Source: a virus. From it: DNA of 64,000 nt. Under the pieces are notes generated by a model. That model did not search any database. It was given only the letters and a program-made list of their open reading frames with translations, and was not told the origin of the DNA. Within the stretch, counting starts at the first letter, position 1. Each line of letters starts with the position of its first letter. Below, piece after piece: positions 11,805-59,361 of this stretch. Position numbers and translations under genes: made by a program. Where the stretch lies: IMG/VR virus record IMGVR_UViG_3300021130_000224, positions 44,422-108,421 of that record. One strand, given 5' to 3'.

Positions 11805-14800
11805 ATGCCAGGTACAGATCAGTTTGGATTTCCAACTTTGCCTAATATGGATAATTCTCAGAAAGATGCAAATCAAACACTTTCTGAAAACCAAAATAAT
11901 GTAGTAAACCCTGCGTTTGTCTTACCTTCTCTTACAAGGGAGTCAAAAAACTTGATACCGAATAAAAGTTCTGCAAGTGGGGTTTTTGATGACATAATGA
12001 AAACTGCAGAAACCCTTACAAGTAAAGGGCCTTCATTAACTGAGCTTACTACTAAAACTGCACAGGATGTTCCAAAAGAATACCGTACAGGTAAATTTCC
12101 TATGTATTATGGTCCAGAAACTGAAGATTTTTATGGTAAGTCTCAGGGTACCGGAGAAAAGTTATTGTATGGTGTAGGCAGAGGTATATCTTCAGGTTCA
12201 CGAGCATTTCTTCAATCTACAGTAGGACTGGTAAATGACATAGCATCTGTATCTACTGGTGGAAGCTTTACTGACAATAACTTAAACAAATGGTTTGATA
12301 CATGGCAAAAAGCAGATGATCTTGATATGCCTCTGTATCAAACAAAAGAAGAAAGAGATAGATCAGGTTGGGATCCAAGAGGTTGGGTAACTGGTAATAA
12401 TGTTGCTCACTTTATAGAAAGTTTGGGCTTTATGGCAGGTATGGCAGGTGGTGCATATGTTACTGCCGGTGCTGGAGAATTTGCCATAGGGGCAAGAGTA
12501 ACTGGATCCATAATGGCAGCATATGATGAAGCTATTGCTAGTTTCTCAGAATTAGCTGCTAAACAAGCTATATTAGTAGGAGTAGAGGATGGCGAAGTTG
12601 TAGCAAAGGCTTTGTCTCAACAGTTAATGAATGATGTAAAAGCTATTCAAGCAGAAGCTACAAGCGGTGCAGTAAAGCTTGATAAAGTAAATAAACTACT
12701 CAATGCAAGTAAAGCTGACCTTGATGCAAAATATGCAGCAAAGTTATTAGGTGCAGAAAAAATAAAGCAAACTATTTATGGTGGTATAGGTAATTTAGGT
12801 ATAGCATCTTCAGCAGGTTTTGAGGCAAAAGAACAGTTCAAACAGAACTACATTGACTCAATGCGTGAAAGAGGTTTTGAACTAACACCTGAAGAACTTC
12901 AAAAGCTTGAAGGTGTTTCTACAAGTGTTGCAAGATGGACAGCTACTGTTACAGGTGCACTGGGAGCTATTTCTTTTGGTCATGCATTTAAAGGAATTGT
13001 TGCAAAAGGAGAAGCCGAAACAGCAGTAAGAGAAGAAATAAATAATCTTGTAAACAAAGAAATACTTACTTCTGAAGAAATAGCTGCAAATAAAATAGCT
13101 AAAACTGCTACAGGGCCTCATATAGAAGGTAAAACAGAATACGTTGATCCTACACAAGCAACAAAGAAAGCAGATAACTTTATAGGAAAGGTTACTCAGA
13201 GTGCACGTAGAGTAGGTAAAGTTGCTGGACAAAATATTGGAAAAATATATGATCCATTTGGTGCTATTACAATGGCTGAGTTTTCAATGGTGTCACCTGC
13301 TATAGAAAACTATTTTTCAAAGCAATACCAAACAGGTGATGCTGACGTATGGGCAGATGCAATAGGTCCTAATCTTGAAAGAGTATTTGGTACAAAAGAA
13401 GGCATAGGAGAACTTATATCAGGTGGCCTTGCAAGTGGATTTTTCCAGGTGGGTGAAAACATAAAAACATCTGGAAAAAGGAAGAGTGCAACGGAAGCTG
13501 CAGCAAATGGAATGAATAAAACTTACATGGGCACTTACCTTAAAGATCTTACTCAGTCCATCAAGGTAGGTAGAGCATTTGATGAAGAAGAAAAAGATGC
13601 TATAATGTCCGGTGACAAAAAGAAACAGTATGACTCAAGAATGTCAAAACTGTTTGCATACATGTTACCAAGAGTAAAGCATGGTAAGTTAGAATACATT
13701 AAATCCGATATAAGAGGTTATCGTGAGCTTCTTGCTACTGATGAGGGCCGTAAACAATTACGTGCAAGTGGAGAATTGCCGGCAGAAGGTGATCTGGTAA
13801 AACAAGCAGAAGAGCTTAATCAACATCTTAATAAGATAGAAGCTTATGCTGAGAATGCAGATAAGACTTATAAAGCTCTTCGTTTAAACCATGGTTCCGA
13901 CCCAAGATTTAAAGATGAAGTTTTTGAAAAGTTGTTATATGCTTCTTCAATGATTGATAACGCATCCGAAAGAATCGTTAATATTTCAAAAGAACTTGAT
14001 ACCAATAAAGATATTACTCCTCAGATAAGAACTCAACTTGTTGAACTTCAAAAGTTAATGAGCAGACCTCTTACTGCAGAAGAATCATTTGAACTTCTTA
14101 AAAATCTTGGTGAATCAAGAGAAGAAATTATTAATAAACTTTCAGGTAGAAAGAATATTAGTGATCTTAGAAATAAGATAGTTTCTAACATAAAAGGTTT
14201 AAGTATTAATGAGACTAAGCAACAAGAGCTTATTGGTAAGATGGGTGATATGCTTAAATTAACCAATAGTAAAACTGGTTATTTAAAAGATTATCAGACA
14301 ATGATACTTAACCCTGAAATGGCTCATGATTTTAGTAGGAACAGCTTACCTGGTTTCCATGAAGAAATGCCCATGGGTAAAGGAGAAGGAGAAGAAGGTG
14401 GTCCGGAGAAACTTACAAAGACCATAAAAGTAAAACATGCAGGTAGTCCTTTTATACTAGGATCAGATGGTAAAAAGATATTTACCCCTTCTGACCTTGA
14501 GGTAGGTGAGGAGTATATAGGTGGTGTAAGAGAACTTTATGATGAATATAAAGGTGAGCCTACCAAAATGAAAAACTTCCCTAAATTCAGATTAGAAGGG
14601 GAGGTTGAAAAAGAAAGACAGACAAGTAAAGGTATTCTTAAAGAAAAGAAGATATTAATAAGTGTACCAGTAGGAGAGAATGGTGATAGAAGATACATGG
14701 AAATTGATCCCAAAGTATTTGAAAAGTATAAACTTACAAAACTTAAAGATCTTCAAAAAAATGAAGAGGCAATGTTCTATGTAAATCATGCAAATGATGT

Positions 14801-17800
14801 ATTTACATATGAATTTCAGAAAGGTAACTCTGATGCAATAAAAGATGGCATTATAACTTTTGATAAGGATAAAAATGTTTTAGCCTTCCGTTACAGAAGC
14901 AATGATGGCAAGGTAAGAGATCATGTTATTGATTTACAAAGAGCACTTGAAGAAGACAGACTAAAGTTTAAAGACAGTAAAAAAGAAATAAGTAAAGAAG
15001 AATATGATAGAATTAAAAACTATCGTGATCCTAACTATACAATGAAAGCTGCTCGTCAAATAGAAATAATTGATGAAGCTACTAAAGAGTACAGAACAGA
15101 ACTGGAAGAAGTTAAAGGTAGAATAAAAGAACGTGAAGATTTGCTTGGTCAACTTCAGGATACCATTGCTGGTATTCAGGAGAAAATGAAAAAACAAGGT
15201 ACTACTAAAAAATCTTTAACTCAGTACACAAAAGAACTTGTGTACATGCAGGAATTACATGATTCTTTACATGATGACCTTGAGCCATTGCTTGCAAGAA
15301 GGGAAGAACTGCAATCTCATTCTGACATAGTAGAAGGTTTAAAAAGTAATATACTTAACCATCCTAACGGTGTTGAGTTTATTGAATACTTGAAAAAATC
15401 TCAAGAGAACATAAAAGCTGAGAAAGAGAAAAACGATACTGCAATTGAGCATCTGAAAGGTCTTATTTCAAAAGCAAAAGATTTTATTGTCACTCTGAAA
15501 GATTCATTACTCAAGAGAATAGCAAAGTTTGAAGCAAGGTATCCGAGTGAAACACCAGGACGTATAGGAGAAATGTCTCAAAGTGAAGCTAATACTTTGT
15601 TGACAATACTAAGAGCTAATGAGTATGATTTCCCTAAAAAACAAGGTATTACCTATGACGATAGTTCTCTTTGGAAAGAAGAACAAATAGGTACTCAGAA
15701 TCCATCAAGGTTGACAGAGCAAACAAGAGCACTTAAAGAGTTCTTAGAAACAAACAGAGACTTCTTTAAAGATCGAGATGAAATACTAAAGGATACTAAT
15801 ATACTTGATGTTAAAGAAAATGAAATAGAAGCTAATGAAAAAGCTATTGCTGAATTATTAGCTGATAATAAGGAACTTGAAAAAGTCTTTAATATTCTCG
15901 ACAAGATAACTAAACAGTTTGAAGAAGAGTATAAGAGATGGAAAGAAGATGTTGTACTTACTCAAGCATACCGGGAATCACCAAGTGCACAAAGGGTTCT
16001 TAGAGAAATGCAAGCAGCAATGAATGCAAACTCTTTACCTATTGTCCCTACATCTTTACTTGATAAAGCTGTAAGGGCCGTGTTAAGAAAAATACCGTTT
16101 TTTAAAATGAAGGGTTTACAACGAAATCCTTTTGCTGATAGTATTATAGTTGATAGTACAAATAAAAATACTTCTTTTTATCAGCAACACAATAACTGGC
16201 CTGATAGAGAAAGAGATTTTACAGCTAATCTTACTAAATGGTCATTTAAGTTAAATGGCAGTAAGTTTGGTTTAGGTAGTGCTATAGAGCCTGATAATGT
16301 AAAGGTAATGGTAGTTAATACCGGCAACCAATCTGCTTTTGGTTTTGAAGGTTTTGTACCTGAGAGTTATCAGAGTTATGATAAATCAGAAACTATTTTC
16401 AACAAAGGAGAAAATAGAGATAACTCAAGAGCACAGGTAGCACTTGTTTATACATATCAAGATGAATCAGGTAGGACATTTACTATAGATAAAGATGGTA
16501 ATCTTTTATCTGAAATAAAACCGGGTGCAGAACAACATGATTTTGACAACATGGTGTTTACCTACCTTGATCACTCAAACCTTAAAAGAACAGGTGCATA
16601 TAGAGCAGGAGAGAGTAAATTTTATGATGCTGAAAGTTTTAGTCAAGATGAACTAAATGCTATTCAAGCAAGTGCTACATCAATGCGTAAAAAGCTTCTT
16701 GATCTAAATGGTCAATTGTTGCTTGATTTTGATGTAATGGGAGGTTTTATTAATAAACCTAAAGAACTGGATGAGGAAATTTCTGATGGTACGGAAGGTG
16801 ATGAAGAACCAAAGAAGAAGCCGGTAATTAACAGAAGTGTTACAGAAGTAGGTTTAATGTCTGATTCAGATCTAAGTAAGCCAAATATTCTTGCTGTAGC
16901 AACTGACGTAGATCCTGAAAACAATAAAGTAGCCAGAGTAGATGGAGAACTTATACCTACTGCTTTACCATTTTTAAGATTGAAATCTGGTAAACCGGTA
17001 ATACTTACAACTAATAGGTTTACAAAAGAGCAGGCTGAGAACATTTATAATGTTCTGAAAAAGATTGCTAATTCAATGTTCAGAGCATATGGTAAATCAG
17101 AAGGTTCTGCTGAAGAAGGTGCAGTTGATAGATTGAGAAATGTTTCTACTGGTAAAGAAATAAGTGCTATGTGGAGATACCTTTCTACAATATCTTATTT
17201 CCGTAGACCAGAAGAAGGAGAGACTCTTGACAGAAATCAATTCTACCTTGATGGAAAAGGTAATATTGTAATGGGTAAAACGTCATGGAAATTTGATCCT
17301 AAGACACTTAATGATCCCGAAGTAAAAGAAAAGATAATTACAATTATTGCCGGCTCTGACAAAATACCAGGCCTATTCCATAATGTGGATAGTCTTTCTT
17401 TACGTGAAAGAGGTACTGAACCTTTTGAAGAATACATTGTTGATGATAATGGTAATGTAAAAGAGGTTAGAACCTGGGAAACTTTAAATCATTGGTATCT
17501 ATCAGATAAATATCCTGATGGTACGGCAAGAAATAAATCAGAGAATGATAATAACATTCCTGTGACTATCAATGCAAATGTACCTTCTTCTACCGGTGAT
17601 GTTGCCATAGAAGGTCGTTACATTAAGGTAAGAGGTATTGGTGAAGAATACAAGCCTAAGATAAAGGAAAAGAAAACAGAACAGACTCACCCGAGTGCTG
17701 CACCCAAGCCAAAGGCTCCTGAACCTCAATCTGCTCAAGGTAAAACTGAACCAATAGAAGAGTTTTCTTTTGAACTAAATGGTAATAAATATCCAATAAC

Positions 17801-20800
17801 AGATGGTAAAATTGAAATAGTTCAAGATTATACTACTTATACTATTATCCCTAAAATAGAAGGCAATAATATAAAAATTGAAAATGCTCAATGGTCAATT
17901 AAAGATCCTAAAACAGGAGAAGTTAAAACAGCAGAAGCTAAAACAGCTTTAAAAGACGTATTTGAACAAAAACTTAAAGAGCAATATGCTGATCATTTAG
18001 CTAAACAAGCTGAAGCAAATAAACCTGCAGAACCTGTAGTTACTACTGATGTACCTGTATCGGATATAGAAGCTAGAAGAGCTGAGATAGAAATAAAAAT
18101 ACAGGAAAAATTAAAACAACTTGATGAAAGTGATAAAAGGTCATTAGAGGCAATAATGCCTAATAATCCTAATCATCCTACATTTAAAGTAGGCATGAGA
18201 TATAATGATGGCATGAGAGTAATTATTCAAAATGCTAAACCTTCAGATAATTTTGATGGTAGAGAAGATAGTTATATTGCAATTACTAAAATAATTGAAC
18301 CTGCTGAATATAGAGCTGATGGTAAAATGACTAAAGCTGCTAAAATTGAAACTACAATATTCAATACTAAAGAAGAAGCTGATAAAGCTATTGCAGATAC
18401 CTATGCCAAAATTCAAGCACAGGTAAAAGAAGGTAAACGTCAAAAAGATGCAAATGCTAAATTTGATACAGAACTTGCTGCTTTAGATAAAGAAGGTACA
18501 AGTACTACAGAAGAACCTCAAGTAATACCTGCTGAACCTCAAATAGAAACTAAATCAGGTAAGCCTGAAACTACAAGTAATGTTGTAGAAAGTGTTAGAG
18601 AAAAAGCACAAAGACTAAAAGACCAACTTAATGGCAATCCTCCTAATACAAGGATTGTACAACCTGGAGAAGTAGCTGTTAGTGATCACAAAGGACACGA
18701 AGAATTTATTACTTGGTTGAAAGATAAATTACCGGGTGTTAAGTATAATGAACTGCACGATGTTGTAAGAATAACAGGTGCTAAATCTGCATGGGGTATA
18801 GCGAAAGATCACATTATTAGTGTATTTAAAGATGCACCACTTAGTGCAAAATATCACGAAGCATTTCACCCTGTATTTGATGTGTTTCTTACTGACAGAG
18901 AAAAAGCTAATGTGATCAGAGAGTTTAAGAATAGACAAGGTAAGTTCTTTGATTTAGGTTCAGGTAAGTATATAAACTTTGCAGATGCTACTGTATATCA
19001 AATTGCAGATAGACTTGCTGAAGAGTTTGGTATATATAAGACTACCGGTAAAATGCCGGAATATACCCCTAAACAGCAGAATTTCTTTAAAAGATTGTGG
19101 GCAGCATTAACGAACATCTTCCGTACACCAACAACTATAGATAGTATCTTTAAAAAAGTAGATGAAGGTGGTTTTAGAAATACAGAACCATTACGTGAAA
19201 TAGGTATTAATAACTACAGTACTGTACAAGGATTAAGAAATAGATTTACTGAGCAGGAAATATCTGCCAATGTAAAAGGTATAGCACTTGAGATATACAG
19301 AAATCTTAGATTAGATACTGGTAAAATGCTTAAAACTCTTGAAGGTAAAACTACATTCAAGGAGTTAATTGATCCCATAAAAGAACTATTTAACTGGAGA
19401 TTTCATCTTGAAGATTCTGAAGCTAAATTTATGGAGAACGGTGTATTTACAATACATGCACCTGATTCTCCATTTGGTGATGTACAGAAAGATAGTTTAA
19501 CTCAAAATTGGCAAAATGTTCTTGATAACTGGGATGATTACATGTCAGAAGTAAAGTCTTTCCTTAAAACAAAGGGTATTGATTTTGTCAAGAAAGAAAT
19601 ATCAGGTGACCTTGAGGAAGGTGAATCTATTAAGGAATCTGCAGGTGAAGAAAGTAATAATAGAGATTATGCAGGTGACATATTTCAATCAGATGCAAAG
19701 AATAATTCTCCAAAAGAAATAAAGCTGATATTTGGTTTTGTTACTGAGGATGATTACGATAATGACCTTATAGCAAAAAGTAATTTCCGCTTACAGGAAA
19801 ATCCAAAACCTAAAATGAATGCTATTTCAGGTATGGATCAAATGTCAACCGATACTGATTACTTCTATGTTGTAATGAAGGAAATGGCAAATGTATCCGG
19901 CCTTGATGAGATGAAAAATAAATTCTTATCTCTTGCACAAAAAATACCTTCATTAGTAAGGCCTTACAAAGCTATATTTGGTGAACCTACTGCAAATAAT
20001 CAACCTACGGCAGAAATGCTTAGACTGCAGCACTTATTTGAAAAAACATTTAATAAGCAGGTTGTTACACCTTTCATGCAGAAGATCTCAGGCAAAGAAA
20101 GTAGTGCTACTATAAATTCAGATAGTGAACGTGATACACGTCAGATAGTAAATGATTTCTTGTCAAACATGACAGGTCTTCATATGAATACCGATATAGT
20201 ATCTATGGATCAACATGGTAACTATACCTTTAATACCAAAGTATTAAAAGATCCTACTCATAAAGATTTTATTCCTAATCCAAGAAATGGTCAGTTCCCT
20301 GAACAGAAAGAACAAATGTCTCTTGAGTTTTTGAATAAGATAGGTTTTAATTTTCCTAAAGAAGTATTTAATAAACTAAGTAAACAAGATAAAGAAAAGC
20401 TTACTAAAGAATCAATGAGACTTTATGATGAGCTTTATAGAGTAACTGCAAAAGGTTCAGGTGCACTTATATCAAGGTCAGGTATAACTACACCAGCAGT
20501 AGATAAAATAGCAGACATTTATCTTAAAGCTGAACGTGGTTTTAGATCAACTCAAAGATTTACAATAGATGGAGAACCTGCTCAAAGGTATGTTCTGCAT
20601 AATAATTTATCCCAAAATTTATCTGAGATCAATCAAGTTGAATCAAGGGAAAAACTTCTACAGGTTAAACCTTATTATGGTACAGATCCTTTCTGCCAAG
20701 AATCACTTCTTTTGAAAGAGAATGGTATGTGGTTTGCTGAAACTGAAACCAAAGGTGATACAAGGTATACACCATGGAAAGATAACTCTAAAATGCAGGT

Positions 20801-23800
20801 TACTGTAACAGAAGGTATTGATTCAAATGGTAAAAAGGTTGCAAATAAAAAAATGAATGCAGTTACCAGGTTCATGCAAGCAATGAATATGAACCTTTCA
20901 GGTAATTTCTACTTTGTAACATCTGCAGATAGTTCACAAGATTGGGGGGCAAGAACAGGTGAGACTGGTAAGTTTTATATTCCACCTTCTGTCTACAACA
21001 ACACTAAATACGTTGGTGATATTTTTGCCGGCTATTTAAGAGCTGAGATAGAAACAATCAAGGATTTTAATGTAAATCCTGAAAAGCAAAAGTGGGAGCA
21101 GCTTAATAAAAAAGTAGGTGGTAGTAAAATAGGAGAGCAACTTCGTTTCTTCAAAGGTCTTCTTTCTAAAGATGCTGTAAAAAAGGTAGAAGAATATGCA
21201 AATGGCAAAGGTCCAGATGCAGAGTTAAGTACTTCTGAATTTGTTAAAAAGATTCAGTCTGATGTAAATGAAGGCTTGAATAAATACATAAGTCAGCAAG
21301 TTGAAGATGCTAAAAAGATGTTGCAAAAAGCATCTATAATAGAGAAAGGTACTCAAGGTTATAGATGGTATGGTTTAAGCGAGAGAGTAAGAGATTTACT
21401 TAGTGCTGACCTTGAAAATAAGCTTGGTAGAAAAGAAAGACCCACCGGTGATTACAAGAAGGATAGAGATCTTCGTATTGTTTATAATGAGAAAGAAATA
21501 AACGATATTATTAAGTTTAGAACACTTAATCATCTTGCTCATGGTATTGAGATGAACAAAGTATTCTTTGGAGATCCTGCTATGTATAAAGATCCTTTTA
21601 AAAGAATGAAGCTGTTTATGTCAGGTAAAGACTTTACTCATACCGATAAAGGTATAGGTGTAAGTAATCTTGTGTTAGCTGATAAGTACAATAAAGTAGG
21701 TGCTCATACTTTAAAGAAAGGACAAGTAGGTTATCATGATTTTACTGATACTCTGAAAATATTTACTTATGACTTTGGTGATAGCCCAAGTACTAAAATT
21801 GCATCTGCAAACTGGAAAGAATTACCTGAAGCATATCAAAGTAATAATTCTATTGATGGTCAGTCTCATATAATGTTACCTTTCTACCGTGAACACAAGT
21901 TAAAGGAGGGTACATGGCCGGATGATAGAGAAGCTCAGTATCAGTATGATCTTGCTTTATTTAGAAGAGAGGCAACCAAGAGGTTTAATGCAGGGGAGAA
22001 GAAATTTGAGAAGTTTGCTTACAAAAATAATGAAGATGACAAAGCCCTAAAAGCTGAGGATGATAAACTGCTTGCTCAAGGTAATCCTAAGGTAGCAAAT
22101 GCATTTTATATTGATAAGCCACTTGCTGTAGGTATGTACCAATCACAATCAAGAATGGTACCATATGCACTTAAAACATCAACTCTTCCACTTTCTTGGG
22201 AACTTGTAAGAGGTAAGGCACTTGAAGATAAATACTTGATGATGCTGGAATCAGGTACTGCTTATAGTGGTCCTAAATCTCAGCAAAAATTTGGTATACC
22301 AGAAGGTGCACCTGAATTGTATAGTAAAGTAACAGGAAAGCTTGCTCTTACTGGTGAAATAATAAAAGCAAAACAATTACCTGTTAGTTGGTCAGACTGG
22401 GGTAAAATATTAGAAACATCAGGTGAGAAAGAAAAGATTACTCTTGGTTCTCAGGGTACTAAACTTGATCATCTCCATTTGTTTACAAGAGGTATACCTA
22501 ATGACTTTATGACAAATCTTTCTTATAAAGAAAGAAATGATCAATGGTCTAAACTTTCTCCAAAGGCCAAAATTGAAAAGAGCGAGTTTTATAAACTTTA
22601 TGACAATAAGAATAAAGCGTTAAGTGCACTTGCTTCTCATGGTCTTGAAGTAATAAAGGATGAAATAGGTATAAGTAAAAATGATGCCGGTGAATATGAA
22701 TTGATGGATGCTTCTAAACTTGTACATTTTCTTAACCAGGAAATTACCAGAAGAGAGTTACCTCAGAATATGAAGGATGCTTTAGGTGTATATTTAAACC
22801 CTAAGTCTGGTAAAATTGAGTTGACAAATGCTCTTGAAACACTTGCTAATTTCAATCAGATACGTTCTATCATAAACTCTCTTATCGACAAACATATTAA
22901 CTCACCTAAAGTGAATGGTAAAGCATTAATACTTGCTTCATCTGCAATGTTTGAAGATGCTTCAAAAGGACTAAGAGTTGAAAAAATAAATGGTAAAGAT
23001 GTACTTGTATCAGATCATCTTGAATTTTACCGTATAGGTAAAGATGGTAAACCTACTAGGAGAATGCAAGTAATGATGACCAACTTTATGTATAATGAGT
23101 TAAAGAAGAAATCTAAGCTTTCTGATGCTGAATTGATGAAATATCTGATGACAGAAGAAGGTAAAGAACTTTTGTATGGTATAGGTTTCCGTATTCCTAC
23201 TCAAGGTCTAAACTCTATAGATTCATTTGAAATAGTACCTTTTGATTTAAGGTATGATAAAGATGGACAAATAGATTACGAGAACAGTAAAATGTTTGTT
23301 CCTAATACATATGGTGACATGATGGTTGTTCCTGCAGAACTTACTACAAAAGCAGGTTCCGACTTTGACGTGGATAAATTGTTTAGTTATCTGAAGAACT
23401 TCTATATTGATGGTAAGGGTTACCCAAGACTTGTAAAGTTCTTAGATGAAAATAACTCTACTCCAGAAGAAAGATATGTTCGTTACGTTAAAGATAGTGC
23501 TGATAAGAAAACAAAAATTGCTATTAGTGCAGAACGTACTGAAGAAGATGACTATGAAAAAGAACAGTTCTTTGGTAAGTTAAAAGATGAAGTAAAACAA
23601 GCAAGAGAACTTGGTGTAAAGGATATTAAAGCTAATATCAAAGAACAAATCAATGACATTAGAAAACAGGCAATAGAGCAATCAGATAGTGTATTTGCAG
23701 AGCTTAGAGAGGTAGGTAAAAAACTGTATAGCAATTTAAGTGAGGAAGTACTTACTGAGTTTAAAGCTCTTGCTGCAGAAAACAAAACTAATAGTGTAAA

Positions 23801-26800
23801 AGGCCCGGCAGAGATAACTTCTTATTTTACTCTATCTTCTGTTCTACTTGAAAGAAGTGACCTTGATGAGAATGATAGAAATAGTCTTTTAAACATGAAC
23901 CATCTCTATCAGAAAGAACTTGAGCAATTAGGTTACAATCAGGAATGGATAGATGAAAGAAAGAAAGAGGTTATTGAAAAATATAAAGCAAGCAAAGAGC
24001 TTATTAATGCTAAAATAGGTGAGATCAGACAAGGTGAAGTTTCAGCATTCTTTGAAGCATTAAATAAGCTAAACAAAGAAGGTGAGTTTGACTTACATAA
24101 AAAGATAGCAGAAGCATCAGGTATTATGTCTTTTGAAGAATTTAATACAAAAAATATCTTTGAACAGAATACCAAAGAAGCTATTGAGAATAAGTATCAG
24201 CAAAACATACATGATATTGTAAGCCATCCTTATAATTTTGATAAGCTTGTTGAGCCCAATAGTGCAGAAGAGCTTAAATCTTTTGAAGCTAAACTTGAAG
24301 AAACTCGTAATTCTAAAAAGTCACAGAAAGAAAAAGATCTACTTGCTGAGGAAAAAGCACGTAAGAAATCAGGTAACGTAGATTACCTGGATACTATTGA
24401 CCCTATCAAGGTGTCAGAACAAAGGCAGGTAATGCTTACTGCAAAAAATCAAATAGGTATTGCTGCTCAGGCAAATACAGGTAACTCACTTGCACATAGT
24501 GCACCAGAGCCAATTGTTATTGATTCAAATGTACCATTGTCTTCACAGGATCTTAAAGAAATACCTGTAGATGCAAATGGTAATAAAGATTATTCAATAA
24601 AGCTTGCACACAATAGTGTAGAAAAAGATGGTAGAAAATTACCTACTATATCTGGAGGAGAAGTTAATCTTGGTAAGATATCCGGATTGATTTCACAAAT
24701 AATAGATGGTTCAGTGGATGCTGCAAATGATCCTTATTTGATGAGAGTATTCCCATCAAAGGATGCTGTATCAACTGCTGTTATGTTGACAAGGCTTGGT
24801 TGTGATATAGGTGATATAGTAATGTTCTTGAACCAACCTATTCTTAAAGAATTGTATTCTAAACAAGAAGCACTTGCAGCAAGAAGATTATTTGATCCTA
24901 CTTATAGGAAATCAAATGATACAATGCTTCAGAATGTTAAAGCACAATTTGGCAAAGGTAAACCTGTGTTTGTAGATAAAGTATTGTCTTTTGATATGTT
25001 ATCTGATATGATTGCTGAGTATGAAGTAAATCCTACCTTGAGAGGTAAAGATGAGTATTCTGCATATCAACGACTGATACTTGATGAATACAAGAAGTAT
25101 AAGCTTTACTCAGACCATCTGTTCCAATTCCAAATGGGTACTACCTGGGACGGTTTGGATAATCCTTCTCCTGCTTCTGTTTATTTAAAAAACAGAATAT
25201 TGGAGCAAACTAAATGGGGTAATGTATTTGGTGACGGTAATCAAATACTTAAAGATAGCTTTGTAAAGACCAGAAAAGAGACTGTGGAAGAAGGTGCTAA
25301 AGCACTTGAAAAAGTATACAAAAATACTTTTCCTTACATAAAGTCTATATGGGATGCATTTAGTAAACGTACCATTCGCATAGGCAATGATGCTAAGAGA
25401 GCAGCAATGGATAAAGCCAATATTTCATTTATTGATTACCTTACTCAGATAACTACATTACCAGGTGGTAAAACAATGAATGCATATATTGGTGAATTGT
25501 TCTTTAAAGATGATGTGTTTGCACAAGAGTTTAATAAAGCAAAAAGAGAAAATGCTAAAAAGAAAGGAACTCCTGAGTACAACATGGCTTTGAACATGCT
25601 AAGGTTAGATAGACAGATCTTCTCAAGGGATAGCAGAACACTTTCATTGAGAGAGAAATCTAAAGATGCTTCTATACAAAATATTCTTACTGACAGTTTC
25701 AGAGAACTGAAGCAAAGTAACCCCGCACTTTATGAGAAAATAGTTTTATTTGGCCATCTGCAGTCAGGTGTTACTGATACTAAACTGTCTTTCAATAAAT
25801 TTATACCTCACGAAGATTATAGTAAAGCTTTGATAAGAGGTATTGAACAACTTGATGGAGGTGATAAAACTATTCTTGAACAGTTTACTAAAACTAACCA
25901 GTTTTATAAAAACAACTGGATAAATGATGAGATAGTACCTTCTGTAGGTAGTTATCTTGAAGGTGAATATAGAGCAGATAATGTTTCTAATTCAGTAATT
26001 GTACTTCAGAAAGGTAAGTATGGATCTGAAAATCCTGCTGTCAAGGTAATGAGTAGACTGAACCCTACAACCGGCAAGTACTATACAGAAGCTGAAGAAG
26101 CTGATCTTGAAGGAAAAGGTTTTAGATTTAAACAAACACCTAAGCTATTCCGTAGAATAGAAACAGACAATGAACCATATACAGTTACTGATTCTAAAGG
26201 TAATGAGTACTATGTATTCAAACAGATAAATGCTTTAGGTGATGGTAATAATGTTCAGGAATACTATACCACAAATGAACCGTCAAAAAGAGATCTTCAT
26301 TTTAAAATAACAGAAGACTCAGATGATACGGTAATAGATGCTGTTGATAAGAGATACTCTGGTGGCAAGGTAACTAATGAGGAAGAAGATATGGATGATA
26401 CATTTGAATCAACATCTACTGTTGCAACACCTATAAATAGAGAGTTGTCAAACATAAAATTTGAAGAACATCCATCTACAAACTATGCAGACAGAACAAA
26501 AATAAATGCTTCTTCTGATGCAACTATAGCACTTGCTACAGACTTTACTTCTGCTGGAGAAAAAGCTACTAAAAATTCAGTAGAACAGCAAGGTAAAAAA
26601 TACATACCAATTGATTTGAATAAAGGTTTAGACGTTACTCAAGAAAGAGTTAACAAATTAGTACAGATGCTTAATGAGTCTGCAGGGAAAGATTTATTTG
26701 CTAAAAAAGAAATATCTCTAAACATTGCAGGTAATGGTATATATACTATGAAAGGTAGATATACACAAGAGCAAGTAGATGATTTTACATATCAATTACT

Positions 26801-27560
26801 CAAAAAAGCTATTGAATCCCCTGATCTTAAAGTTAAAATATCAAGTATTAATACAGGTGGTCAAACAGGTTTAGATGAAGCTGGTGCAAAAGCCGGATTA
26901 AAATTAGGAATACCAACAAAAATACTTGCACCAAAAGGTTGGAAATTCAGAGATATAAATGGTAATGATATTTCTGATGAAAAAAGATTTAAGGATAGAT
27001 TTAAAATGAGTATACCTGTATCTACAGAACGTACTACAGTAAAACCAAATACAAAAGGTGAGTATAATATTTATGCAGGTACCGGAGAAAATGTAGTTTT
27101 ATCAAATATGACACCAAGAAAGTTTATTTATAATGGTGGAGAATTTAATTCAGTAGAACAAGCATTTCAGGAAGCTAAACTTCAGTTTACAAAAGGTACT
27201 GAAAAAGATATTGCCACTCATAAAAAAATCAGTGAAGCAAAATCAGCTTTTGAGGCTAAAAAATATGGCAGAGAATACAGTACATTAGATGCAAAAGCTT
27301 GGGATGAAAATAGTAGTAAATTTATGAAGATGTTTATTAAATCATCTTTTGAACAAAATCCACAAGCACTTAAAGAATTGCTTGCTACTGGTGATGCTAA
27401 ACTTACACATAATCAAGATGCTGGTAAATGGGGTACTGAATTTCCAAAAATCCTTATGGAAGTAAGAGATGAATTTAAAGGTAAAACAACTGCAGAACCA
27501 GCAGTAGATGCAAGAGCAAAAAATAATGAAGAAGGTAATAAACCAAATCCAGCATGTTAG
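11805..27560 (+). CDS. Giant virion RNA polymerase polyprotein (RNAP + zincin + SLOG-like + NADAR)
   Basis: This 5251-aa protein is the largest in the window. N-terminal hydrophobic Gly/Ala-rich segments lie at about 195-240 and 380-405, and Lys/Glu-rich coiled-coil-like regions at about 590-800 and 1050-1400. HEAFH (H2351, E2352, H2355) followed by a Glu pair at 2406-2407 is a zincin-type metallopeptidase signature, perhaps for self-processing. GSDFDVDKL places the DxDxD metal-binding Asp triad (D3853, D3855, D3857), the hallmark of the single-chain double-psi beta-barrel RNAP of crAss-like phages. That enzyme is known to be packaged and ejected to transcribe early genes. At the C-terminus, residues about 4890-5050 look like a YpsA/molybdenum-carrier-type SLOG domain with motifs in permuted order (RT 4897-4898, DAT 4905, NIAG 4973, GGQTG 5018, PKG 5043). 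About 5087-5225 is a NADAR domain (LSN 5099-5101, SVEQAFQEAK 5116-5125, WG 5209-5210, LMEVR 5217-5221). The 3' end overlaps the peptidase gene by 7 bases. Confidence 0.85.
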   Translation: MPGTDQFGFPTLPNMDNSQKDANQTLSENQNNVVNPAFVLPSLTRESKNLIPNKSSASGVFDDIMKTAETLTSKGPSLTELTTKTAQDVPKEYRTGKFPMYYGPETEDFYGKSQGTGEKLLYGVGRGISSGSRAFLQSTVGLVNDIASVSTGGSFTDNNLNKWFDTWQKADDLDMPLYQTKEERDRSGWDPRGWVTGNNVAHFIESLGFMAGMAGGAYVTAGAGEFAIGARVTGSIMAAYDEAIASFSELAAKQAILVGVEDGEVVAKALSQQLMNDVKAIQAEATSGAVKLDKVNKLLNASKADLDAKYAAKLLGAEKIKQTIYGGIGNLGIASSAGFEAKEQFKQNYIDSMRERGFELTPEELQKLEGVSTSVARWTATVTGALGAISFGHAFKGIVAKGEAETAVREEINNLVNKEILTSEEIAANKIAKTATGPHIEGKTEYVDPTQATKKADNFIGKVTQSARRVGKVAGQNIGKIYDPFGAITMAEFSMVSPAIENYFSKQYQTGDADVWADAIGPNLERVFGTKEGIGELISGGLASGFFQVGENIKTSGKRKSATEAAANGMNKTYMGTYLKDLTQSIKVGRAFDEEEKDAIMSGDKKKQYDSRMSKLFAYMLPRVKHGKLEYIKSDIRGYRELLATDEGRKQLRASGELPAEGDLVKQAEELNQHLNKIEAYAENADKTYKALRLNHGSDPRFKDEVFEKLLYASSMIDNASERIVNISKELDTNKDITPQIRTQLVELQKLMSRPLTAEESFELLKNLGESREEIINKLSGRKNISDLRNKIVSNIKGLSINETKQQELIGKMGDMLKLTNSKTGYLKDYQTMILNPEMAHDFSRNSLPGFHEEMPMGKGEGEEGGPEKLTKTIKVKHAGSPFILGSDGKKIFTPSDLEVGEEYIGGVRELYDEYKGEPTKMKNFPKFRLEGEVEKERQTSKGILKEKKILISVPVGENGDRRYMEIDPKVFEKYKLTKLKDLQKNEEAMFYVNHANDVFTYEFQKGNSDAIKDGIITFDKDKNVLAFRYRSNDGKVRDHVIDLQRALEEDRLKFKDSKKEISKEEYDRIKNYRDPNYTMKAARQIEIIDEATKEYRTELEEVKGRIKEREDLLGQLQDTIAGIQEKMKKQGTTKKSLTQYTKELVYMQELHDSLHDDLEPLLARREELQSHSDIVEGLKSNILNHPNGVEFIEYLKKSQENIKAEKEKNDTAIEHLKGLISKAKDFIVTLKDSLLKRIAKFEARYPSETPGRIGEMSQSEANTLLTILRANEYDFPKKQGITYDDSSLWKEEQIGTQNPSRLTEQTRALKEFLETNRDFFKDRDEILKDTNILDVKENEIEANEKAIAELLADNKELEKVFNILDKITKQFEEEYKRWKEDVVLTQAYRESPSAQRVLREMQAAMNANSLPIVPTSLLDKAVRAVLRKIPFFKMKGLQRNPFADSIIVDSTNKNTSFYQQHNNWPDRERDFTANLTKWSFKLNGSKFGLGSAIEPDNVKVMVVNTGNQSAFGFEGFVPESYQSYDKSETIFNKGENRDNSRAQVALVYTYQDESGRTFTIDKDGNLLSEIKPGAEQHDFDNMVFTYLDHSNLKRTGAYRAGESKFYDAESFSQDELNAIQASATSMRKKLLDLNGQLLLDFDVMGGFINKPKELDEEISDGTEGDEEPKKKPVINRSVTEVGLMSDSDLSKPNILAVATDVDPENNKVARVDGELIPTALPFLRLKSGKPVILTTNRFTKEQAENIYNVLKKIANSMFRAYGKSEGSAEEGAVDRLRNVSTGKEISAMWRYLSTISYFRRPEEGETLDRNQFYLDGKGNIVMGKTSWKFDPKTLNDPEVKEKIITIIAGSDKIPGLFHNVDSLSLRERGTEPFEEYIVDDNGNVKEVRTWETLNHWYLSDKYPDGTARNKSENDNNIPVTINANVPSSTGDVAIEGRYIKVRGIGEEYKPKIKEKKTEQTHPSAAPKPKAPEPQSAQGKTEPIEEFSFELNGNKYPITDGKIEIVQDYTTYTIIPKIEGNNIKIENAQWSIKDPKTGEVKTAEAKTALKDVFEQKLKEQYADHLAKQAEANKPAEPVVTTDVPVSDIEARRAEIEIKIQEKLKQLDESDKRSLEAIMPNNPNHPTFKVGMRYNDGMRVIIQNAKPSDNFDGREDSYIAITKIIEPAEYRADGKMTKAAKIETTIFNTKEEADKAIADTYAKIQAQVKEGKRQKDANAKFDTELAALDKEGTSTTEEPQVIPAEPQIETKSGKPETTSNVVESVREKAQRLKDQLNGNPPNTRIVQPGEVAVSDHKGHEEFITWLKDKLPGVKYNELHDVVRITGAKSAWGIAKDHIISVFKDAPLSAKYHEAFHPVFDVFLTDREKANVIREFKNRQGKFFDLGSGKYINFADATVYQIADRLAEEFGIYKTTGKMPEYTPKQQNFFKRLWAALTNIFRTPTTIDSIFKKVDEGGFRNTEPLREIGINNYSTVQGLRNRFTEQEISANVKGIALEIYRNLRLDTGKMLKTLEGKTTFKELIDPIKELFNWRFHLEDSEAKFMENGVFTIHAPDSPFGDVQKDSLTQNWQNVLDNWDDYMSEVKSFLKTKGIDFVKKEISGDLEEGESIKESAGEESNNRDYAGDIFQSDAKNNSPKEIKLIFGFVTEDDYDNDLIAKSNFRLQENPKPKMNAISGMDQMSTDTDYFYVVMKEMANVSGLDEMKNKFLSLAQKIPSLVRPYKAIFGEPTANNQPTAEMLRLQHLFEKTFNKQVVTPFMQKISGKESSATINSDSERDTRQIVNDFLSNMTGLHMNTDIVSMDQHGNYTFNTKVLKDPTHKDFIPNPRNGQFPEQKEQMSLEFLNKIGFNFPKEVFNKLSKQDKEKLTKESMRLYDELYRVTAKGSGALISRSGITTPAVDKIADIYLKAERGFRSTQRFTIDGEPAQRYVLHNNLSQNLSEINQVESREKLLQVKPYYGTDPFCQESLLLKENGMWFAETETKGDTRYTPWKDNSKMQVTVTEGIDSNGKKVANKKMNAVTRFMQAMNMNLSGNFYFVTSADSSQDWGARTGETGKFYIPPSVYNNTKYVGDIFAGYLRAEIETIKDFNVNPEKQKWEQLNKKVGGSKIGEQLRFFKGLLSKDAVKKVEEYANGKGPDAELSTSEFVKKIQSDVNEGLNKYISQQVEDAKKMLQKASIIEKGTQGYRWYGLSERVRDLLSADLENKLGRKERPTGDYKKDRDLRIVYNEKEINDIIKFRTLNHLAHGIEMNKVFFGDPAMYKDPFKRMKLFMSGKDFTHTDKGIGVSNLVLADKYNKVGAHTLKKGQVGYHDFTDTLKIFTYDFGDSPSTKIASANWKELPEAYQSNNSIDGQSHIMLPFYREHKLKEGTWPDDREAQYQYDLALFRREATKRFNAGEKKFEKFAYKNNEDDKALKAEDDKLLAQGNPKVANAFYIDKPLAVGMYQSQSRMVPYALKTSTLPLSWELVRGKALEDKYLMMLESGTAYSGPKSQQKFGIPEGAPELYSKVTGKLALTGEIIKAKQLPVSWSDWGKILETSGEKEKITLGSQGTKLDHLHLFTRGIPNDFMTNLSYKERNDQWSKLSPKAKIEKSEFYKLYDNKNKALSALASHGLEVIKDEIGISKNDAGEYELMDASKLVHFLNQEITRRELPQNMKDALGVYLNPKSGKIELTNALETLANFNQIRSIINSLIDKHINSPKVNGKALILASSAMFEDASKGLRVEKINGKDVLVSDHLEFYRIGKDGKPTRRMQVMMTNFMYNELKKKSKLSDAELMKYLMTEEGKELLYGIGFRIPTQGLNSIDSFEIVPFDLRYDKDGQIDYENSKMFVPNTYGDMMVVPAELTTKAGSDFDVDKLFSYLKNFYIDGKGYPRLVKFLDENNSTPEERYVRYVKDSADKKTKIAISAERTEEDDYEKEQFFGKLKDEVKQARELGVKDIKANIKEQINDIRKQAIEQSDSVFAELREVGKKLYSNLSEEVLTEFKALAAENKTNSVKGPAEITSYFTLSSVLLERSDLDENDRNSLLNMNHLYQKELEQLGYNQEWIDERKKEVIEKYKASKELINAKIGEIRQGEVSAFFEALNKLNKEGEFDLHKKIAEASGIMSFEEFNTKNIFEQNTKEAIENKYQQNIHDIVSHPYNFDKLVEPNSAEELKSFEAKLEETRNSKKSQKEKDLLAEEKARKKSGNVDYLDTIDPIKVSEQRQVMLTAKNQIGIAAQANTGNSLAHSAPEPIVIDSNVPLSSQDLKEIPVDANGNKDYSIKLAHNSVEKDGRKLPTISGGEVNLGKISGLISQIIDGSVDAANDPYLMRVFPSKDAVSTAVMLTRLGCDIGDIVMFLNQPILKELYSKQEALAARRLFDPTYRKSNDTMLQNVKAQFGKGKPVFVDKVLSFDMLSDMIAEYEVNPTLRGKDEYSAYQRLILDEYKKYKLYSDHLFQFQMGTTWDGLDNPSPASVYLKNRILEQTKWGNVFGDGNQILKDSFVKTRKETVEEGAKALEKVYKNTFPYIKSIWDAFSKRTIRIGNDAKRAAMDKANISFIDYLTQITTLPGGKTMNAYIGELFFKDDVFAQEFNKAKRENAKKKGTPEYNMALNMLRLDRQIFSRDSRTLSLREKSKDASIQNILTDSFRELKQSNPALYEKIVLFGHLQSGVTDTKLSFNKFIPHEDYSKALIRGIEQLDGGDKTILEQFTKTNQFYKNNWINDEIVPSVGSYLEGEYRADNVSNSVIVLQKGKYGSENPAVKVMSRLNPTTGKYYTEAEEADLEGKGFRFKQTPKLFRRIETDNEPYTVTDSKGNEYYVFKQINALGDGNNVQEYYTTNEPSKRDLHFKITEDSDDTVIDAVDKRYSGGKVTNEEEDMDDTFESTSTVATPINRELSNIKFEEHPSTNYADRTKINASSDATIALATDFTSAGEKATKNSVEQQGKKYIPIDLNKGLDVTQERVNKLVQMLNESAGKDLFAKKEISLNIAGNGIYTMKGRYTQEQVDDFTYQLLKKAIESPDLKVKISSINTGGQTGLDEAGAKAGLKLGIPTKILAPKGWKFRDINGNDISDEKRFKDRFKMSIPVSTERTTVKPNTKGEYNIYAGTGENVVLSNMTPRKFIYNGGEFNSVEQAFQEAKLQFTKGTEKDIATHKKISEAKSAFEAKKYGREYSTLDAKAWDENSSKFMKMFIKSSFEQNPQALKELLATGDAKLTHNQDAGKWGTEFPKILMEVRDEFKGKTTAEPAVDARAKNNEEGNKPNPAC

Positions 27561-28117
27561 TATTATCAGCTCACACGGATGTTGTAAGACATGACATCCC
27601 ACTTACAAATGACAAAGGCACTATGGTCGGGTTACTTGATAACCTGGCCGGTGTCATTTGTATGTACAATGCTATTTACTCTAATCCTTCGATTCAACAT
27701 GCTCTTGCTCAAGGTGATATTAAAATTTTTCACAACAGACATGAGGAGTTTGCGTATGCTGTAAACTTTCCCGACCTTGATCCAGAGAAAGATTTTGTTA
27801 TCAATATTGATGTGTGTGCCGGCGAAAGATATCAGGGTATGGATGCCGGCATTGAGAACTTGTATGGCAAGAAAATAGCTGAAGTATTAAACGCTCTTGA
27901 ATGGGAAGGATTTAAGTTCTACTTTTGTGAGTACACTGGAGACCCGGAAGAAGCTGACGAAATGGATCAGTGGGTTGAAAAGAAAATACCAGGTCTTTCT
28001 TTTATTATTCCTATTGATTGCCCGAATGATAACTGGCATGGTGAGGCCCAGCTTCCAATGGAAAGAATGACCAAAGCAATACTTATGTTACAAAGATTAA
28101 TCTGTTATTTATTATAA
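27554..28117 (+). CDS. Short M20/M28-like zinc metallopeptidase
   Basis: The 187 residues carry a spaced set of likely zinc ligands and catalytic residues in the order typical of M20/M28-type exopeptidases: H7-x-D9, D29 in LLDNLAG, the Glu pair E64-E65 in RHEEF, D86 in INIDVCAG and H162 in NWHGE. It is about half the length of cellular family members and lacks a dimerisation domain, which is common for minimal forms. It overlaps the end of the polyprotein gene by 7 bases, and its stop is 1 base before the ATP-grasp gene, so the three form one operon. Substrate unknown; a peptide or amide bond is expected from the family. With the adjoining ATP-grasp ligase it may form a make/break pair. Confidence 0.65.
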   Translation: MLVLSAHTDVVRHDIPLTNDKGTMVGLLDNLAGVICMYNAIYSNPSIQHALAQGDIKIFHNRHEEFAYAVNFPDLDPEKDFVINIDVCAGERYQGMDAGIENLYGKKIAEVLNALEWEGFKFYFCEYTGDPEEADEMDQWVEKKIPGLSFIIPIDCPNDNWHGEAQLPMERMTKAILMLQRLICYLL

Positions 28118-41629: not shown

Positions 41630-42073
41630 CTACCATTTCTTGATTTTTTTCATATTGACTCTAGTACGTTGTGTTTTATTTTCTTTTGTCTCATTTCGAT
41701 AAATTGTAATCAATTTATTATCCTCAACTCTTACCATAAATTCCTCTACCGGATACGTGCCATTACCCAGTGTACGGATCATATTCAAAAGCTGTGGGGT
41801 CAAAATACGCTCTCTCATTTCATCTTCAGTCGCCGGTCCTATTCGTTGTGTATACCTGGCAATAAAGTGAGTTGTCAACAAAATCTCTCTTCCCTCAAGG
41901 TATTCTATGCCCTTGTTAACTCCTACAAGCTTTTCATTTGTATTCTTAATCTCAGACTCGATTTTATCTTTGTCCTTACCCAACTTCACAAGTCTTTCAT
42001 TCAATTTATGTCGTTGAGCATAGAGACCACTGAGTCTTGACTCCTTCTTTTTCTTCTCATGCTCTTCTGCCAT
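41630..42073 (-). CDS. Coiled-coil protein with a possible RNase-like C-terminal segment
   Basis: The first 65 residues form a strong Lys/Glu coiled coil. The second part has LLTTHFIARYTQRIG...EERIL...LITIYRNET, which weakly recalls the H/R/Y pattern of DUF4258-type, RelE-like RNases. That reading is a guess. The start ATG shares a base with the RecA stop region, so it is co-translated with RecA. Confidence 0.55.
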   Translation of the reverse strand: MAEEHEKKKKESRLSGLYAQRHKLNERLVKLGKDKDKIESEIKNTNEKLVGVNKGIEYLEGREILLTTHFIARYTQRIGPATEDEMRERILTPQLLNMIRTLGNGTYPVEEFMVRVEDNKLITIYRNETKENKTQRTRVNMKKIKKW

Positions 42074-43062
42074 TACTTGCCTCCTTTTATTTTTTCCATT
42101 ACTTGTGTTTCAAGATCTGTAGCATAATCAGGATTATCTATTAAGAACTGTTTTACTTTATCCATACCTTGGAATTTAGTTTCACCTACAGTAAACCATG
42201 AACCACCTACCTTTATAAGATCAAATTCACATGCAAAGTCAATTAGTTCTTTTTGACGATCTACACCGGTACCCCAGTTGATATTGAACTCAGCCTTACC
42301 AAATGGGCAAGAACATTTATTTTTTATAACATCTACTGTAGTTTTATTCATTTCTTTTTCTATGTCATTACTTTTCCATACCTTATAACGAATATCACTA
42401 TAGAATTTCCATGCATTTCCACCTGATGGCTTATCTCCACCATGTTGACTACCAATAGCAGATCTGAGTTGTGATACACCTACCATTGTACAACGGTTTG
42501 GTTTTAGTAATGGTTTAATTTTACCAAGTGCAACACTATTAATACGAGCTTGTGCAGCAACTGTTGCATCTCCTACTTCACCTGCAATAACTACTTTTGG
42601 TAAACCTGCAGTATGCGAATCAATAATTACAAATCTTACCTTACCTGTTCTAATCAAAGTCTCAATGATATTATAACCATCTTCCATACAATCTGGCTGT
42701 ATAATGGTAAGTCTATCTACATCTACACCAAGTGCCGTAGCATATGTTTTATCATATGAATGTTCATAATCTACTAATAAACACTCACCATCTAATTTTT
42801 GAAAACCTGAAGTCATGTGCAAACATAAAGTTGATTTTCCCGAACTCTCTGGACCAAATATCTCAATTAATTTACCAACTGGATTACCACCAAGACCTGT
42901 AGCAATATCAAGACTTATTGAACCAGTTGTTACTACTTCAAGATCTTCTTTTACATCTTTACCATGAATGATAGTCCCAATTCCATATCGAGCTTCTAAT
43001 TTTTTAATTGTTTCTGCATACTTATCCTGTTCAGGATTTTCTTGCTTAGTTGCTTTTGCCAT
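42073..43062 (-). CDS. RecA-family recombinase
   Basis: The 329-aa protein has Walker A GPESSGKST (70-78), a GECLLVDYEHSYD segment, Walker B VRFVIIDSHTAG and the loop-2 region MVGVSQLRSAIG...GGNAWKFYSDIRYKV, as in RecA and T4 UvsX. The length fits the family. It catalyses ATP-dependent strand exchange in recombination-dependent replication and repair. Neighbours (exonuclease, HNH nuclease, OB/J-domain protein) fit a recombination module. A terminator hairpin just upstream separates it from the previous gene, so it probably has its own promoter. Confidence 0.9.
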   Translation of the reverse strand: MAKATKQENPEQDKYAETIKKLEARYGIGTIIHGKDVKEDLEVVTTGSISLDIATGLGGNPVGKLIEIFGPESSGKSTLCLHMTSGFQKLDGECLLVDYEHSYDKTYATALGVDVDRLTIIQPDCMEDGYNIIETLIRTGKVRFVIIDSHTAGLPKVVIAGEVGDATVAAQARINSVALGKIKPLLKPNRCTMVGVSQLRSAIGSQHGGDKPSGGNAWKFYSDIRYKVWKSNDIEKEMNKTTVDVIKNKCSCPFGKAEFNINWGTGVDRQKELIDFACEFDLIKVGGSWFTVGETKFQGMDKVKQFLIDNPDYATDLETQVMEKIKGGK

Positions 43063-43076
43063 TGTTTTTAAAATTT

Positions 43077-43114
43077 AAAAGGGACATCTAAGTTACCTTA
43101 AAATGTCCCTTTTT
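43077..43114 (-). terminator. Hairpin terminator downstream of the 361-aa exonuclease gene
   Basis: Read on the - strand, stem AAAAGGGACAT pairs with ATGTCCCTTTT around a 15-base loop; a T-rich run follows. It lies 16 bases after the stop at 43131. The stem spans + strand positions 43077-43087 and 43103-43113. It marks the end of the transcript that carries RepL-like and exonuclease genes and isolates recA. Confidence 0.75.
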
Positions 43115-43130
43115 CCAAGTTATTTAATAT

Positions 43131-58883: not shown

Positions 58884-58884
58884 A

Positions 58885-59361
58885 TTATGCACTGTTTGAT
58901 TCTATATCATCTGAAAGCTCCTTTAACTCCTCATCTTTGTAATACTTAAACTTACCACCATTAAGATAAGCAACGGTTGCTTTCATGTATTGAAAGTCAT
59001 TGTACTTAGGGTCTTTATGGTTGTAACTAGCTACTTTCCTCAACTCTATTTCTACCTTGAGGCAGTAGAGCATATCTTCGTCTGTAAATCCTGCAGCTTT
59101 CTTTGCTTCTTTATATGCTTTGAAGGTTTCTTCTTTCTTGTCTCTCAAACCTCTGGTACCGGTAAACTTCCTGCCTTTAAATAAGAAGTTCATACTTGCC
59201 GGATATGTACACCACCACTCTTGAAACGCTTCAGGGTAATCGTCTTCTGCCTTCTTCTGTCGAACTGGTCTGTATTGTTTGTGCCAGTCCTCGTAACCAC
59301 CATCAGGATTGCTCTGTAAGAACTCCTTAATGTTATTAAATTGAGGTAGTGTTACTGACAT
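58885..59361 (-). CDS. Hypothetical protein, possible helicase loader/partner
   Basis: The 158 residues contain YPEAFQEWWCTYPASMN...KKEETFKAYKEAKKAAGFTDEDMLYCLKVEIELRK...FQYMKATVAYLNGG. This resembles the C-terminal part of phage replisome organisers (fxxxWxxYP ... A...W ... L..G). The gene ends 1 base before the helicase start, so it is co-translated with it. Loader or organiser activity is an inference from both facts. Confidence 0.55.
   Translation of the reverse strand: MSVTLPQFNNIKEFLQSNPDGGYEDWHKQYRPVRQKKAEDDYPEAFQEWWCTYPASMNFLFKGRKFTGTRGLRDKKEETFKAYKEAKKAAGFTDEDMLYCLKVEIELRKVASYNHKDPKYNDFQYMKATVAYLNGGKFKYYKDEELKELSDDIESNSA

Follow-up and report, generated by a model that had tools for sequence, protein, structure and literature searches.

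A giant RNA polymerase polyprotein with two C-terminal accessory domains

The window analysed here is a stretch of 64,000 nucleotides of viral DNA, corresponding to positions 44422-108421 of the 108,421-bp IMG/VR record IMGVR_UViG_3300021130_000224. On its plus strand, a single open frame at 11805-27560 encodes the giant RNA polymerase (RNAP) polyprotein of a crAss-like phage (5,251 aa), the core of which aligns with phi14:2 g066, phiCrAss001 gp50 and other Crassvirales RNAPs around the DFDxD motif. The core alignment places the catalytic motif of the beta'-like RNAP core, DFDVD, at 23361-23375 (+; aa 3853-3857); crAss RNAPs have a DxDxD motif (PMC7886860). The genes upstream of the polyprotein encode a portal protein (phrog_6547, E = 1.4 × 10−95), a major head protein (phrog_11589, E = 3 × 10−29) and a terminase (phrog_6681, E = 2 × 10−16). 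With its DxDxD-containing beta'-like core, and with portal and capsid genes of crAss-like type lying upstream, the giant protein falls, by homology, among the Crassvirales virion RNAPs. Elsewhere in the window, a 187-aa ORF at 27554-28117 overlaps the polyprotein stop and shows a weak M20-metallopeptidase-like match (E = 0.2) with HTD and HEEF motifs, and replication genes (RecA, a PD-(D/E)XK nuclease and a DnaB-like helicase) are found on the minus strand at 42073-44216 and 57771-58892.

The alignment of relatives shows that the conserved C-terminal part of the RNAP ends at aa ~4849 and is followed by a linker (26351-26451, +), at which the accessory-module region begins. The module-free relatives L198 and L225 align to aa 4849 and 4846, respectively, and stop soon after. 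The nearest relative, the sister L102, which is without SLOG, matches as far as aa 4849, after which the alignment picks up again only on the NADAR side, such that the difference between its polymerase and that of the window phage is the SLOG domain.

Two domains were identified in this region by profile search, PHROGs and a fold model: a cpYpsA-like SLOG domain at 26451-27011 (+; aa 4883-5069), and a NADAR domain with a phage-type histidine at 27063-27503 (+; aa 5087-5233). A reading of the sequence alone had proposed a NADAR and a SLOG-like domain at 26480-27545, at the polymerase C-terminus, and is borne out here to within tens of bases of the profile bounds (26451-27503). In a Pfam hmmscan of window positions 26202-27557, both families matched above their curated cut-offs, NADAR (PF08719) with E = 8.1 × 10−14 (52.6 bits against a cut-off of 35.1), and cpYpsA (PF12694) with E = 1.7 × 10−9 (38 bits against 26.2). 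PHROGs concurred (phrog_10774, E = 9.5 × 10−27, for SLOG; phrog_1017, E = 9 × 10−21, for NADAR), and a NADAR profile built without the window scored 165 bits on the real C-terminus compared to 9.5 bits for the best of 1,000 shuffles. NADAR occurs once in the whole 108,421-bp record. The AlphaFold2 model of the C-terminal modules (52 relatives) had a mean pLDDT of 87.7, with both domains mostly above 90. The top Foldseek match was an ADP-ribose-bound NADAR (8bau, E = 1.8 × 10−7), followed by YbiA (2b3w, TM 0.75 by target length), the fold of which the NADAR thus adopts in the model, and, more weakly, by a molybdenum-carrier SLOG (3imk, probability 1.00, E = 1.4 × 10−2, 116 aligned columns).

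In the SLOG domain, SDAT at aa 4904 precedes the GGQTG loop at aa 5018 (26853-26885, +), which is not the GGQTG-then-SDGT order of PF12694; because the halves are permuted relative to PF12694 and the superfamily is the same, we class the domain as SLOG (cpYpsA-like) and not as a standard cpYpsA. The swapped order, with the SDxT half ahead of the GGQTG half, amounts to a further circular permutation (window 26451-27011; L007 19029-20711; L008 4399-5598), one that also occurs in phrog_10774 and in a SLOG protein of Vibrio phage ICP1 whose gene lies beside that of the helicase helA.

Conservation of active-site residues

Alignment with 8bau places three catalytic positions in the window NADAR. 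E5118 (27156-27158, +) corresponds to the catalytic Glu43 of the P. nicotianae NADAR and E88 of the E. coli C7 NADAR; K5125 (27177-27179, +) to Lys50 and K95, respectively, which coordinate phosphate; and H5202 (27408-27410, +) occupies the position of the last catalytic acid (E125 and D171, respectively). The domain thus has the catalytic Glu and Lys of the SxEQxFxxxK region that characterize the NADAR superfamily, and the histidine aligned with E125 of P. nicotianae places it with phage NADARs of the gp30.3 type. E88 and K95 are required in the E. coli C7 NADAR (PMC11543638), and the third catalytic position is Glu in YbiA, Asp in DarT-linked NADARs and His in phage NADARs (PMC11543638, PMC11125620). 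Among 69 distinct relatives, all three residues are invariant wherever covered (E in 68 of 68, K in 69 of 69, and H in 68 of 68). GGQTG is likewise kept in nearly all of 66 SLOG copies, with T in 97% and the other four positions invariant. Across nine module pairs with synonymous changes, dN/dS ranged from 0.18 to 0.71 and was below 0.35 in seven. The invariance of the catalytic residues, together with the low dN/dS, shows that the NADAR and SLOG modules are maintained by purifying selection, and the domains are probably active.

Frequency of the fusion among crAss-like phages

The scans for NADAR and SLOG began from RNAP-fused queries, and hence the counts give the fusion frequency within this subfamily, not among all NADARs: of the 65 distinct NADARs of the subfamily in IMG/VR, 48 share an ORF with a crAss-like RNAP core (42 C-terminal and 6 N-terminal of the core), 11 lie in ORFs of at least 1,000 aa with no core in the examined DNA, 4 are cut by a contig end and 2 are stand-alone. 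SLOG copies in the same survey occurred with a core in 30 cases, in large ORFs in 9, cut in 3 and stand-alone in 23. Both module orders, SLOG-NADAR and NADAR-SLOG, were observed. In a module-blind sample of 80 loci, found with the RNAP core alone, NADAR and/or SLOG was present in 4 and a macro-like module in 2, and 74 had none of these. The Pfam NADAR model, when run over the whole contigs of the module-blind loci, identified 5 NADARs, 3 in giant frames and 2 as small separate genes. The contigs of the module-free polymerases L198 and L249 carry a separate small NADAR gene elsewhere (G027 66255-66707; G078 21769-22158), as if the same function were carried either fused or as a separate gene; packaging is therefore not required in every case.

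Most of the sequences compared are metagenomic. We rejected an assembly accident of one contig as the origin of the fusion, since dozens of independent contigs have the same architecture, as do phage genomes in GenBank. The sequence-only reading had treated the fusion as a feature of this phage, and it is indeed present here, but it is not limited to one phage and represents a widespread mobile architecture.

A search of 84,980 genomes yielded no cellular donor of the NADAR and only 5 relatives, 2 in large frames (one with an RNAP core), 2 in 510-aa frames, and a fifth that adjoins a SLOG and has a broken frame. On a Bacteroidales MAG contig, L256 (4082-5737) contains a SLOG-NADAR unit with the NADAR frame split over two ORFs; it may be what is left of a decayed phage. 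The RNAP frames of cr130_1 and cr131_1 (L017 and L018) are open only when TAG is read as an amino acid, which fits the TAG recoding known in some crAss-like phages; in cr130_1, a DprA-like match lies beside the NADAR.

Gain, loss and domain-exact exchange of modules

On the RNAP tree (143 cores, 278 columns, FastTree), we counted at least 22 presence/absence changes of modules, of which 15 are forced by well-supported branches, the exact number of gains being uncertain because the alignment is short and divergent. Comparisons of close relatives resolve individual events to domain boundaries. Over 2,340 aa, the PhiCrAssBcn25 polymerase is 99.4% identical to that of phiCrAss001, from which it differs by ~196 extra residues, a SLOG. 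A 141-aa NADAR is what separates the polymerases of L052 and L055 (98.3% identical), and likewise those of L108 and L234 (~95%). The Kolpuevirus cr126_1 has an N-terminal NADAR where its relative 'frurule' (87%) has none, and 'frurule' carries a macro-like domain near the polymerase C-terminus.

Conversely, closely similar modules were found on distant polymerases. L118 and L119 share only 471 bp, the NADAR, at 97.5% DNA identity, whereas their RNAP cores are 17% identical. L108, in which the module is N-terminal of the core, and L111, in which it is C-terminal, have 447 bp in common at 92.6% DNA identity. The macro modules of L022 and 'frurule' are 67% identical, compared to 24-29% for their polymerases. 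These observations show that the modules are mobile cassettes with recurrent domain-exact gain, loss and exchange. In L052 and L053, the polymerase cores are near-identical and the NADARs strongly diverged (dS 0.45, dN 0.32), which suggests, from sequence divergence, that one NADAR was replaced by another in place.

Such turnover bears on whether the modules serve ordinary phage transcription, for example by repairing ADP-ribosylated or NAD-capped RNA or DNA, or by cleaning damaged nucleotides. Their physical fusion to the polymerase fits such housekeeping, as do the links of NADARs with damage control and RNA repair in other contexts (PMC9503650), but we consider it quite unlikely, as most relatives transcribe without modules (only 6 of the 80 have NADAR, SLOG or macro) and modules turn over between near-identical polymerases.

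One slot with different fillings

In the catalytic subunit of Kehishuvirus, a conserved leader of ~60 aa is followed by a variable slot and then by the polymerase. Among 25 cultured Kehishuvirus isolates, all grown on one strain (B. intestinalis DSM 108646), the slot holds a SLOG in 5, is empty in 11 and holds an orphan insert in 9; these figures rest on the slot sequences of Bcn4, 9, 24 and 25 and, for the other isolates, on match length, supplemented for the orphan insert by a search of the phage collection. A macro domain fills the slot in the metagenomic relatives cr112_1 and L022 (an IMG/VR contig), the latter slot belonging to a polymerase 97% identical to phiCrAss001 gp50, and NADAR occupies a comparable slot in the Kolpuevirus cr126_1. 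In Steigviridae, the modules sit within the N-terminal part of the catalytic subunit, between the conserved leader and the polymerase.

The macro-like insert gave no match in Pfam or in a PDB sequence search and was identified by fold search alone. Its model (pLDDT 90.3) has a macro fold, with ADP-ribose-binding viral macrodomains as the best PDB matches (probability 1.00, TM ~0.6) and TARG1 also among the matches, at an identity to the PDB matches of only ~9-15%. In L022, the macro domain (2152-3039) is nested in a second, split domain (phrog_9995), and in L068 (3485-11476, aa 2172-2479) a macro-like domain is inserted within a SLOG domain. In nine isolates (L258 469-870 in PhiCrAssBcn4, and also Bcn5-12), the slot is filled by a 134-aa stretch with the orphan insert, which is apparently helical. 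No PHROG matched it at E ≤ 0.1, the phage collection contains no relative of it outside the nine isolates, and it is a candidate new anti-defence domain. Other accessory domains were observed at the C-terminal side: RecD/Dda-like SF1 helicase domains are fused to the RNAP tails of L177, L191, L199 and L241, and DUF7831 occurs in the L199 tail as well as after the NADAR in cr130_1 and cr131_1.

SLOG, NADAR and macro are different folds, the common trait of which is a known or predicted action on NAD or ADP-ribose compounds (PMC9503650). That such folds recur at the edges of one and the same protein is what argues most strongly for a function directed against ADP-ribose chemistry. It also weighs against neutral accretion, under which pieces of mobile DNA would settle, without any function under selection, where a large protein tolerates additions at its ends. 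Such a process could account for the patchy distribution and the frequent gain and loss, but it is highly improbable in view of the invariant catalytic residues, dN/dS well below 1 in most pairs, clean in-frame domain boundaries and the repeated choice of three ADP-ribose-related folds.

Packaging and proposed function

In phiCrAss001, gp47, gp49 and gp50 were detected in virions by mass spectrometry and are proposed to be stored in the capsid and ejected before the DNA (PMC10172136), and the phi14:2 genes of the RNAP block carry an MS/MS proteomics annotation. Since phiCrAss001 gp50 carries DFDVD, gp50 is the catalytic subunit that received the SLOG insert in PhiCrAssBcn25. By analogy with these orthologous subunits, the modules are likely packaged in the particle, where they could be under-represented or from which they could be missing if cleaved off. 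The polyprotein is far larger than the separate phiCrAss001 subunits, hence processing is conceivable, and our literature search found no proteomics of a module-bearing particle; both points would be compatible with modules that are split from the polymerase, or that act late (on superinfecting phages or late abortive systems, for example), without delivery by the particle. We regard this as very unlikely, because the position of the Steigviridae modules, between leader and polymerase, is internal to the catalytic subunit.

The best explanation of these observations, and in our judgement a fairly probable one, is that the domains serve counter-defence as exchangeable modules that process ADP-ribose compounds and enter the cell together with the virion polymerase. 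Under this model, the polymerase C-terminus would be an accessory-domain slot with two ADP-ribose-related modules. The SLOG would likely bind or sense an NAD- or ADP-ribose-type nucleotide, or cleave its N-glycosidic bond, and the NADAR, catalytically intact and of the phage type, would likely be a hydrolase of ribosyl N-glycosidic bonds, such as that of ADP-ribosyl-guanine. Packed into the capsid, the polyprotein would leave it before or together with the DNA and refold in the cytoplasm. The modules would thus be active within the first minutes, next to the polymerase and the incoming genome and before any phage gene expression. There they may reverse ADP-ribosylation of phage DNA or RNA, or destroy an ADP-ribose-derived alarm signal, and phages would gain, lose and exchange modules at the polymerase edges because host defences vary. 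That the slot contents as a whole represent a delivered counter-defence arsenal, comprising ADP-ribose erasers (NADAR, macro and SLOG) and further types such as the orphan insert of PhiCrAssBcn4-12, is a broader proposition to which we assign even chances.

A phage NADAR of the gp30.3 type removes ADPr from guanine in vitro, whereas cells exposed to DarT1 were not rescued by NADARs lacking a link to it, among them the phage NADAR (PMC11125620); DarT1 thus need not be the target, and another system may be. Small ADPr-derived signals have been argued for (PMC9503650). Of 198 genomes sampled from the order to which a Bacteroidales MAG belongs, 15 have DarT, and hence DNA-ADP-ribosylating systems exist in the broad host group. 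An anti-DarT NADAR, AdfN, is known in T-even phages.

An alternative to destruction is that the SLOG, and perhaps the NADAR, binds NAD or ADP-ribose derivatives made by the host's immune system and switches the behaviour of the polymerase or of ejected proteins. SLOG domains fused to nucleic-acid enzymes have been proposed as sensors (PMC9503650), and the GGQTG loop is kept in almost every SLOG copy. However, NADAR and macro folds are mainly hydrolases, the NADAR catalytic residues are invariant, and the modules, located at variable edges to either side of the core, look more like independent payloads than like an allosteric site; a sensor or regulator is therefore unlikely. A counter-defence role at the very start of infection, which the sequence-only reading had drawn from domain content, gains comparative support from the recurrent gain and loss, the domain-exact transfer, the several folds per slot and the invariant catalytic residues, while what we infer is the activity of NADAR and SLOG, the defence target and the substrate, be it a small signalling molecule or guanine-ADPr carried by DNA or RNA.

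Relation to known systems and implications

The window NADAR belongs to the same Pfam family as the T4 gp30.3-family phage NADARs and the DarT-linked NADARs (PMC11125620, PMC11543638), with the same catalytic E and K, and has the phage-type histidine at the third position in common with the gp30.3 family; unlike these proteins, it is a module of a virion RNA polymerase and not a stand-alone protein or antitoxin. The SLOG shares the profile match, the GGQTG loop and a partial fold match with the cpYpsA or 'molybdenum carrier' SLOG (PF12694; PDB 3imk), but has its halves in swapped order and is fused to a polymerase. Polyvalent proteins of phages and conjugative elements (PMC5512222) are likewise large, multidomain, thought to be injected and endowed with several conflict-related activities, whereas here a crAss-like virion RNAP is the carrier; the text of PMC5512222 was found to mention neither crAss nor NADAR nor SLOG. 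The proposed timing, delivery with the DNA, is the same as for head-packaged ADPr enzymes, namely T4 Alt and the NADAR, Macro and Nudix proteins encoded near virion genes (PMC9503650); in that survey, phage NADAR and SLOG proteins are typically stand-alone, and crAss-like phages are not mentioned. The crAss-like virion RNAPs of phi14:2 (gp66) and phiCrAss001 (gp50) have a homologous core in the same gene block (PMC10172136, PMC7886860) but none of these modules, and the presence of the modules in relatives was not found described.

A literature search for crAss with NADAR, DUF1768 or macro domain, which covered part of the literature text, with figures, supplements and preprints outside its scope, found no description of the fusion. 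The component families, phage packaging of ADPr enzymes (T4 Alt; PMC9503650) and injected polyvalent proteins (PMC5512222) are already known; we found no description of a fusion to the crAss virion polymerase or of how it recurs, nor of the slots or the domain-exact exchange.

crAss-like phages rank among the most abundant human gut viruses. Taken together, our data suggest that the virion polymerase carries interchangeable domains that disarm defences, much like a payload bay used against those of the bacterium at the very outset of infection. If this interpretation is correct, part of the strong variability of crAss RNAPs would be explained, de-ADP-ribosylating enzymes would have a delivery route ahead of gene expression, and new anti-defence domains could be discovered by reading the slots. 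Phages in culture allow a direct test, as the 25 isolates from one Bacteroides strain vary in the slot.
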